NCBI GenBank assembly: GCA_027531395.1
Contig: JAPZRO010000001.1
Coordinates: 608,377-672,376 of the forward strand
Length of the DNA: 64,000 nucleotides
Direction: 5' to 3'
From: Porphyrobacter sp.
GTDB lineage: Bacteria; Pseudomonadota; Alphaproteobacteria; Sphingomonadales; Sphingomonadaceae
Of this stretch, positions 54,099 through 56,956 are shown piece after piece; position 1 is the first letter of the stretch; the number at the start of each line of letters is the position of its first letter. The notes beneath the pieces are model-generated. The model worked only from the letters and a program-made list of their open reading frames with translations, did not search any database and was not told the origin of the DNA. The position numbers and the translations under genes are program-made.

Positions 54099-54782
54099 TT
54101 AGCCCGCGTCTCTCAGAAAGCTGGCGCGGTAGAGCGTCGGAAACATCGCCTTCAAGGCCGCGACCTTGGGCGCGTCCCAGCGCACGATGTAACCGTGGCG
54201 CGGATTGTTGGCCATGAAGTCCTGATGATAGCCTTCCGCCGGGTAGAAGGCCTTGTAGGCCTCGATCCGGGTCACGATCGGCTTCGACCACAGGCCCGAT
54301 GTGCCGAGCTGGGCGAGATAGGCCTTGGCGACGGCCGCCTGCTCGGCGTTCATCGGCACGATCGCGCTGCGATAATGCGAGCCGACATCCGGCCCCTGCC
54401 GGTTCTTGAGCGTCGGATCGGCCACCACCGAGAAGAAGATCCGCAGCAGCTGATCATAACGCACCACGGCGGGATCATAGGTGATCTTCACGGATTCGGC
54501 GTGGGCGGTGCCGCCCGCGACGATGGTGTCATACTGCGCGGTCGCCGCAGAGCCGCCGTGGAAGCCCGAGACGGCCGAGGTCACGCCCTTCACATGGCTG
54601 AACACGCCCTCGACACCCCAGAAGCACCCGCCCGCGAAGATCGCGGTCTTGAGGCCGGGCTTCTCCTTGGCCACGCGGGTGGCGGCGGGCGCGTCGACCG
54701 GCTCCTCGGCAGCGATGGCGGGGCCGGCGCAGGCCGACAGCGCGAGCGATCCGACGACGATGAGGGCAGCGAGACGGTTCAT
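54099..54782 (-). CDS. msrA: Peptide-methionine (S)-S-oxide reductase, exported lipoprotein-like
   Basis: MNRLAALIVVGSLALSACAGP signal with lipobox, AIFAGGCFWGVEGVFSHVKGVTSAVSGFHGG, TPAE-like HYRSAI and GYHQDF. Confidence 0.94.
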   Translation of the reverse strand: MNRLAALIVVGSLALSACAGPAIAAEEPVDAPAATRVAKEKPGLKTAIFAGGCFWGVEGVFSHVKGVTSAVSGFHGGSAATAQYDTIVAGGTAHAESVKITYDPAVVRYDQLLRIFFSVVADPTLKNRQGPDVGSHYRSAIVPMNAEQAAVAKAYLAQLGTSGLWSKPIVTRIEAYKAFYPAEGYHQDFMANNPRHGYIVRWDAPKVAALKAMFPTLYRASFLRDAG

Positions 54783-54970
54783 GGGGTTTCCTGTTGCGGC
54801 GCAATCACGAATTCTGCGGCAGGCTCAAGCGTCTCGGGCATCGGCGCGGCGAGTGCGGGGGAGGCGATCTGGTCGCCAAAGCTCTCGGCATTGGCTCCGG
54901 CTACCAGCAAGGCGCCGAGCAGGAAGCCGATCGAGAAATTGCGGAAGAGGTCGGAGGAGAAGAGGCGCAT
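54779..54970 (-). CDS. Small hypothetical protein with one TM/signal segment
   Basis: 63-aa ORF MRLFSSDLFRNFSIGFLLGALLVAGANAESFGDQIASPALAAPMPETLEPAAEFVIAPQQETP, 4-nt overlap with the msrA start. Confidence 0.6.
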   Translation of the reverse strand: MRLFSSDLFRNFSIGFLLGALLVAGANAESFGDQIASPALAAPMPETLEPAAEFVIAPQQETP

Positions 54971-55143
54971 CGAACTGGCTCGTGATTCGTGATTTTTTGT
55001 CTGCCTCGTCCCATGCCCGAGCCCGAATTGCTTGCGGATGAACGCAGAGATCAGGCGTTATTTCGGTCGTCATGCGCTCGAAGTTACGCACCCCGCGAGA
55101 AAAGGTTGCACCCCACAGAGCCCAAGGACTCAGCGCAACCCAT

Positions 55144-55237
55144 CGGCCCGAAGGGCCGCGAGCGCACAGCGCGAGCCGCAGGGGCCCGTAGCGAAGCGAA
55201 GGAACAGCCCCGAGGATGTGCCCGTGGAGGCGGGCAC
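55144..55237. repeat. Structured tandem element, copy 1
   Basis: CGGCCC-GAA-GGGCCG, GCGC-ACA-GCGC, GGGGC..GCCCC (55181-55211) and GTGCCCG-TGGAGG-CGGGCAC (55218-55237). Long identical core shared with copy 2. Confidence 0.85.
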
Positions 55238-55250
55238 ACGCACAAAAACG

Positions 55251-55344
55251 CCCCGAAGGGCCGCGAGCGCACAGCGCGAGCCGCAGGTGCCCCGTAGCGA
55301 AGCGGAGGGAACAGCACCGAGGACGGGGGCGCGGAGGCGCCCCC
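55251..55344. repeat. Structured tandem element, copy 2
   Basis: CCCC-GAA-GGG, identical core GGGCCGCGAGCGCACAGCGCGAGCCGCAGG, GGTGC..GCACC (55286-55318) and GGGGGCG-CGGAGG-CGCCCCC (55325-55344). Minus strand carries GCCCTTCGGGGCGTTTTT, a possible purH terminator. Confidence 0.85.
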
Positions 55345-55354
55345 GCAAAGCAAA

Positions 55355-56956
55355 TCAATGCCTGAAATGCCGCATCCCGGTGAACACCATCGCGAGACCG
55401 GCCTCGTCGGCGGCGGCGATCACCTCGTCGTCGCGGATCGAGCCGCCCGGCTGGATCACTGCAGTTGCGCCCGCTTCGGCGGCGGCCAGCAGGCCGTCAG
55501 CAAAGGGGAAGAAGGCGTCCGAGGCGACCGCGCTGCCCACGGTGCGGGGCGCGGCCCAGCCGTAGGTCTCGGCGGCTTCCTTGGCCTTGATCGCGGCGAT
55601 GCGCGCCGAATCGCGGCGGTTCATCTGGCCTGCCCCGATGCCTGCGGTCGCGCCGTCCTTGGCGTAGACGATGGCGTTGGACTTGACGTGGCGCGCCACG
55701 GTCCAGGCGAAGAGGCAGTCCTTGAGTTCCTGGCTTGTGGGCGCGCGCTTGGTGACGACCTTGAGATCGGCCTCGGCAATCGCGCCATTGTCGCGCGACT
55801 GGATCAGCACCCCGCCCGCGATGGTCTTGAGCGCGAGGCCCCCGCGGCGCGGGTTCGGCAGCGCGCCGCATTCGAGCAGGCGCAGGTTCTTCTTCTTCGC
55901 GAAGATTTCGCGCGCCTCGGCAGAGACGGAAGGCGCAATCACCACCTCGGTAAAGATCGCGCTGATCGCCTCGGCAGTCGCGGCATCAAGCTCGGTGTTG
56001 ACCGCGACGATCCCGCCGAAGGCCGAAACGGAATCGCACGCCAGTGCCGCTTCCCACGCCGAGAGCAGCGAGCCGCCTTGCGCCACGCCGCAAGGGTTGG
56101 CGTGCTTCACAATAACGACGGCAGGCTCCTGCCCGGCAAACTCGGCGGCGAGTTCGAGCGCCGCGTCGGCGTCGTTGAGGTTGTTGTAGGAGAGCTCCTT
56201 GCCCTGCAACTGGGTCGCTTGCGGGACGCCGGCGGTGCCGGACACCTGAGGGACATAGATCGCCGCCGACTGGTGCGGGTTCTCGCCATAGCGCAGCGTG
56301 TCGGCGCGCTTGAATGCGAGCGGGAGCGTCTCGGGGAACAGCGTCGGCTCGTCCGAAGCGGCGGGCGAGAAGGCGAACCAGCTGGCGATCGCGCTGTCAT
56401 AGGCAGCGGTGCGGGCATAGGCCTTGCCCGCCATGCGGGTGCGGAAAGCCTGCGTGGTGGCACCGCCGTTCGCTTCCATCTCGGCGATCAGCGTCGGGTA
56501 ATCGGCAGGATCGGTGAGGATCGTCACGAAGCCGTGGTTCTTCGCCGCCGAGCGCACCATCGACGGCCCGCCGATGTCGATGTTCTCGATCACTTCCTCG
56601 CGGCTTGCACCCTTGGCGACGGTCGCTTCGAAGGGATAGAGGTTGACCACCACCAGATCGATCGCGCCGATCCCGTGGGCCTCCATCGCGGCGACGTGCT
56701 CGGGATTGTCGCGCAAAGCGAGCAGCCCGCCATGCACAGTCGGGTGCAGGGTCTTCACCCGCCCGTCCATCATCTCGGGAAAGCCGGTGAGTTCCGACAC
56801 ATCCTTCACGGCAAGGCCTGCATCGCGCAAGGCCTTGGCGGTGCCGCCGGTGCTGACCAGCTCGACGCCGCGCGCCGCGAGGGCCGCGCCAAGTTCAGCC
56901 AAACCGCTCTTGTCGGACACTGACAGCAGTGCCCGCGTGATTGCCTTCTCGCTCAT
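55355..56956 (-). CDS. purH: Bifunctional AICAR formyltransferase/IMP cyclohydrolase
   Basis: [41 protein letters not shown] ... [11 protein letters not shown] ... [54 protein letters not shown]. Confidence 0.97.

Follow-up and report, generated by a model that had tools for sequence, protein, structure and literature searches.

A REP-like family of four-hairpin repeats behind genes of Porphyrobacter and related sphingomonads

REP repeats are usually moved by a transposase. Among the described systems closest to the element reported here are the CGTC REPs which Di Nocera et al. (2013; PMC3733652) reported in alphaproteobacteria; they are known from sphingomonads such as S. wittichii and stand behind ORFs, within 20 bp. 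Each of them is 20-40 bp long, with an 8-9 bp stem whose first pairs are A-T, a 5' CGTC tag and a CCA tail; they form inverted dimers and have no dedicated transposase (PMC3733652). In E. coli, according to work cited in PMC12306157, REPs that lie no more than 15 nt from a stop codon stall ribosomes.

We analysed a window of 64,000 nucleotides from Porphyrobacter sp. ("the window" means this whole 64-kb stretch of DNA), in which hairpin-rich elements follow the gene purH. Compared with Rfam, the window yields only a tRNA at the gathering threshold and, at a lax threshold, nothing near the element beyond a chance match (E up to 5). The open-access literature, which gives no proof of novelty, returned no description of a unit of ~115 nt with four hairpins, and the repeat family is apparently undescribed so far.

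The tandem pair behind purH and the structure of the unit

The gene named purH by the first-pass annotation of this DNA lies on the minus strand at 55355-56956, with its stop codon TGA at 55355-55357; homologues of it were found in 40 of the 41 genomes searched. That annotation had described two tandem elements of ~105 nt at its 3' end, and both are present: a 20-base core occurs at 55157 and at 55262, that is with a spacing of 105 nt, and the covariance model finds exactly two matches in the window, the next best having E=0.36. Copy A, which is proximal to purH (copy 2 of the annotation), matches from H1 to H3 at 55261-55346 (R2 covariance model, 82.4 bits, E 1.3e-11) and copy B (copy 1) at 55156-55239 (76.1 bits, E 1.3e-10). 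Both copies and all their parts are on the minus strand and are read here on the strand of purH.

A unit measures about 115 nt and consists of a T-rich leader followed by four hairpins, H1 to H4. The leader (consensus TTTGNTTT, 117 copies) has a T at position -2 in 102/117 copies and at positions -6 to -8 in 74-83/117; in copy A it is TTTGCTTT and fills the space between the purH stop codon and H1 (55347-55354), so that H1 starts 8 nt past the stop. H1 has 10 bp, the outer ones being for the most part G-U and C-G, and a loop CTCC, replaced by ATCC or GTCC in other genera; in copy A it covers 55323-55346, with the CTCC loop. An unpaired CCTC separates H1 from H2, which combines an outer stem of 5 bp with a TGTT bulge and an inner hairpin of at most 8 bp (in copy A, at 55286-55318, the outer stem is GGTGC/GCACC and the inner hairpin is variable). 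After TGCGG comes H3, with a core of 4 bp (GCGC-TGT-GCGC in copy A, 55267-55277). H4 is GCCC-TTCG-GGGC in copy A (55250-55261) and CGGCCC-TTC-GGGCCG in copy B (55144-55158). Its stem has a mean length of 5.9 bp over 120 copies versus 2.2 bp in shuffled sequence and, since there is no sequence conservation past it, H4 marks the end of the unit.

The T-rich leader of copy B (GTTTTTGTGC, 55240-55249) stands directly 3' of the H4 of copy A. It contains the GTTTTT from which one copy had been proposed to double as the terminator of purH. This run of T is real, yet it belongs to the leader of the copy that follows, and a terminator scan of 54700-55500 found no terminator-like site, so we rejected this role.

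The two copies had also been said to differ mainly where pairing is preserved, and here the annotation was accurate: 16/52 paired positions differ between copies A and B versus 0/32 unpaired ones (Fisher p=3e-4). The outer stem of H2 is GGGGC/GCCCC in copy B and GGTGC/GCACC in copy A, with an inner CC/GG versus CCC/GGG, and the annotation's helix 3 is GTGCCCG/CGGGCAC versus GGGGGCG/CGCCCCC, as first described. When the copies of the window are folded singly, the energy has a z of about -0.9 for the sense strand, which is not significant, and of about -2.5 for the complement, a moderate value.

Several relatives carry another repeated hairpin, CCTACCGCTTCGCTACNTGAGG, in the space separating the stop codon of purH from the element: L093:3110-3131 (genome G010), L098:1468-1489 (G011) and L110:1470-1491 (G012). 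It is also found in L088 and L100, and as a one-base variant in G008.

Copies in the genome and its relatives

With a covariance model built from 24 copies we found 26 copies at E<1e-3 in the genome of the window (G000), 0-30 in each genus mate, and copies in 31/151 genomes of the taxonomic family, with matches in about 20 of its other genera; a second model, applied to the whole order, found copies in 45/251 genomes, all within one family. All these copy counts are lower bounds, because only 17-109 candidates were scored per genome. None of the 16 genomes from other families matched, and BLAST found no match to the element in plasmids and phages; an exact scan of genome contigs found a 30-base match in one Porphyrobacter MAG. 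The element is thus dispersed and not confined to the purH site. The first-pass annotation had inferred a dispersed structured element, either REP/ERIC-like or an sRNA/3'-UTR module; the REP-like reading is supported by the placement and covariation of the copies as well.

In 73/135 copies the distance from the end of a same-strand ORF to H1 is -2 to 15 nt, 8 nt being the commonest value; the fraction is approximate because our codon-based gene calling missed some genes (genes around the copies were called in stretches of genome by a simple caller based on codon usage, and ORFs with coding-like codon use were counted). When the positions were shifted by 100-400 nt, only 0-4 of about 134 were so placed. 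H1 faces the gene, in one fixed orientation. At least 7 further copies directly follow the 3' end of tRNA genes, about 15 follow a hairpin and a T-tract, that is a terminator, and among the remaining 32 several sit behind genes missed by the simple caller. The host genes with a copy at their 3' end probably include def, nusG, rplA and tRNA-Trp, to judge by C-terminal sequence, and the same gene ends can bear the element in several species and genera. In the ribosomal-protein region of G000 (C15:272761-277684), four same-strand copies occur within 5 kb, behind apparent rplA, nusG, tRNA-Trp and another gene.

Copies are single, in tandem or in inverted dimers. Among 25 close pairs 22 are +/-, all of them H4-to-H4, and none is -/+; H1 is therefore turned outward at both ends of a dimer. 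The gaps measure 53-81 nt in 20 of the +/- pairs, mostly 53-71. At L188:1056-1166 a CGTC-like repeat occupies the centre of an H4-to-H4 dimer, whose gap is long (111 nt). In the close relative G022, the site orthologous to C19:3713 of G000 (L222) holds variant units of the type TTCCGCATCGCATCCGCGACGCGAATTCCTCGCTCATGCGACC, which probably form a diverged subfamily, present in G000 at C15:306459, C14:212299 and C11:390510 too.

The possible partner named at first was a RAYT-type transposase. No RAYT or Y1 transposase (PF01797) is present in G000, nor in any of 24 genus mates except G002, G007 and G013, and the domain is absent from 16 of 17 element-bearing genomes. We rejected an association with RAYT or IS200, the transposase being absent from G000 and from nearly all element-rich relatives. 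G002 has six Y1-transposase matches and zero copies of the element, which is the opposite of what dependence on RAYT predicts. A group II intron or an IS200 end was considered as an origin from the T-rich flank only and was dropped, as no feature supporting it was seen.

Covariation and the turnover of stems

In the 24 copies of G000, we counted 117 cells in which both sides of a pair had changed, versus 41+-4 after shuffling and 10-25 when the partners were slid; for 105 copies from relatives the count is 564, versus 190+-13 shuffled and 52-98 slid. As the copies are related, shuffles alone overstate the significance, and the slid controls keep this relatedness. Pairing is kept in copies other than the two behind purH, and the covariation is very strong.

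The first-pass annotation had read covariation as a sign of selection on the structure. The covariation stands, but a selected RNA structure is weakened by the substitutions, by the fold of the sense strand and by the stems at orthologous sites. Such a structure would be a 3'-UTR RNA element, either an mRNA stabiliser or a 3'-UTR-derived sRNA, whose helices evolve by compensatory mutation; the covariation speaks for it, as do the fixed orientation and distance to the stop codon, the conservation of the unpaired CCTC and TGCGG, and the fact that several genera use the same gene ends. G-U pairs are normally common in RNA helices, and if pairing were selected in the transcript, G-U stepping stones should be common here. 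Yet the inner cells of H1 contain 944 Watson-Crick pairs, 2 G-U and 12 A-C, and all helices together, minus the two outermost pairs of H1, contain 14 G-U versus 39 A-C (p=8e-4). The predicted fold keeps 66% of the consensus pairs for the sense RNA versus 81% for the complement (70% and 79% respectively with DNA parameters). The A-C excess and the better fold of the complement led us to consider an antisense RNA, a reading which we dropped. G-to-A exceeds C-to-T in unpaired columns too (3.7% versus 1.7%), hence we make no claim that it is the complement which functions. Some copies, moreover, lie past intrinsic terminators, and a close relative lacks the element at 9 of 19 sites (see below). 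As far as it can be read from the aligned copies, the substitution pattern does not support selection on the sense RNA.

We searched G022 with 21 flanks taken just before copies of G000, located 19 sites and read the sequences by eye. Nine of the sites are filled, nine are empty and one holds a different palindrome, so filled and empty orthologous sites, as expected of a transposable element, both occur. At C12:3258 of G000, the element directly follows the T-tract of a terminator; G022 has the terminator and then, at once, the shared downstream sequence. Among the genus mates, the purH end is filled in some and empty in others; truncated and internally deleted alleles occur as well. No clean target-site duplication was noted among the compared sites and the search for Y1 transposases gave no mobilising enzyme, so mobility rests on the filled versus empty sites, and some of these differences could be explained by deletion.

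Copies at orthologous sites differ from each other in 33.0% of H1 versus 34.8% for random copies, and in 10.2% of unpaired positions versus 10.1%. A given stem type reappears at unrelated loci and in other species. Positions are shared while the copies in them are as unlike as random ones, and stem types are found again elsewhere: the stems thus resemble exchangeable cassettes. The near-absence of G-U pairs and the lack of any extra similarity between orthologous copies, compared with random ones, both argue against a simple selected 3'-UTR RNA, which we consider unlikely. The pattern looks more like turnover of DNA palindromes than like selection on RNA. It offers a clean case in which strong covariation between copies is, alone, no proof of a selected RNA structure, the scarcity of G-U and the way in which stems are reshuffled while positions stay fixed pointing to palindrome turnover at the DNA level.

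The explanation which we favour, and hold to be probable without being sure of it, is a RAYT-independent family of REP/REPIN-like palindromic DNA repeats standing at the 3' ends of transcripts, whose stems turn over and which may act as RNA barriers. The element would be non-autonomous, spreading as DNA with no accompanying RAYT or other Y1 transposase. It occupies the 3' ends of transcription units, H1 toward the gene, where it may be tolerated or useful; its positions persist across species and genera while its stems turn over, each palindrome as a whole, the probable routes being recombination between copies, re-insertion or template switching inside the palindrome. Where copies are transcribed, their stable hairpins, mostly 2-15 nt past the stop codon, would probably act as a barrier on the RNA, blocking 3' exonucleases or slowing the terminating ribosome as has been reported for E. 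coli REPs. Copies linked to a CDS do fall inside the 15-nt distance of REP stalling in E. coli. As copies past terminators cannot serve the preceding gene in this way, such a role is possible for only part of the family. What the data establish is the family, with its structure, covariation, placement, dimers and turnover; mobility and the barrier on the RNA are inferences. Several facts fit the favoured explanation less well: the unit, with its length and its four hairpins, exceeds classical REPs of 20-40 bp; the same gene ends are common to genera more than recent random insertion should produce; and the search for Y1 transposases gave no mobilising enzyme. Sphingomonads that carry several copies at known gene ends, such as purH, allow a direct test of how REP-like repeats spread without RAYT.

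A bolder version, which we consider about as unlikely as the 3'-UTR RNA, is a strand-locked class of multi-hairpin repeats targeted to transcript 3' ends and moved by some enzyme; each copy would inherit its position and fold, while stems would be swapped as cassettes between copies. If true, it would make a distinct class of bacterial repeats and a general 3'-end module.

It is still more doubtful that the copies are old, immobile repeats with inherited positions, whose quasi-palindromes are rewritten by template-switch repair, the covariation being then mutational and functionless. This would agree with the positions common to genera, with the near-perfect Watson-Crick arms and very few one-side changes, with stems which differ blockwise between tandem copies, and with the lack of a transposase. 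But the unpaired linkers are conserved across genera, the spacing of dimers is narrow, and the recurrence of stem types at unrelated loci and in other species is better explained by copies exchanging stems than by each copy being rewritten on its own.

Relation to known repeats

In favour of the mobile REP-like repeat, the element resembles REPs and REPINs in the broad sense: its copies are dispersed and palindromic, extragenic mainly behind ORFs, and form inverted dimers. We file it as REP-like and not as a classical REP, since the latter has 20-40 bp and one hairpin whereas our unit has ~115 nt and four. That it belongs to the known GTAG or CGTC REPs, served by an accessory transposase, is very improbable: placement behind ORFs and inverted dimers do match, and CGTC REPs are likewise without a dedicated transposase (PMC3733652), but the candidate failed on tag, tail and stem, there being no GTAG at the hairpin foot (H1 is flanked by TTTGNTTT and GTCCTC), no 5' CGTC tag, no CCA tail, first stem pairs other than A-T and four hairpins in place of one, while true CGTC REPs stand separately beside some copies.

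Genuine CGTC-type REPs and four-hairpin units thus both occur in these genomes. The former (CGTCATTGCGAGCNNAGCGAAGCAATCC) adjoin copies of the element at L040:1617-1644, L183:1095-1122 and L184:792-819; that of L040 is in contig C11 of G000, about 30 nt after the copy C11:315581. None is found in the 64-kb window.

Intrinsic terminators, like our element, place GC-rich hairpins at the ends of transcripts; here, however, the T-tract precedes the hairpins, and several copies follow a normal terminator. With the GTAG REPINs and BIMEs that go with RAYT, as described in PMC3116915 and PMC2817692, the element shares paired inverted units, a variable centre and patchy, population-like copy numbers, but it has no GTAG tag, no RAYT and longer units with several hairpins. 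Like the E. coli REPs near stop codons, as described in PMC12306157, it sets a stable hairpin a few nucleotides behind the stop codon; unlike them it keeps one fixed orientation and forms a longer array of hairpins. From the CGTC REPs the purH-type unit differs by its ~115 nt, its four hairpins and its T-rich leader, with neither tag nor tail; like them (PMC3733652), it is palindromic and dispersed, has no dedicated transposase, stands behind ORFs and forms inverted dimers.
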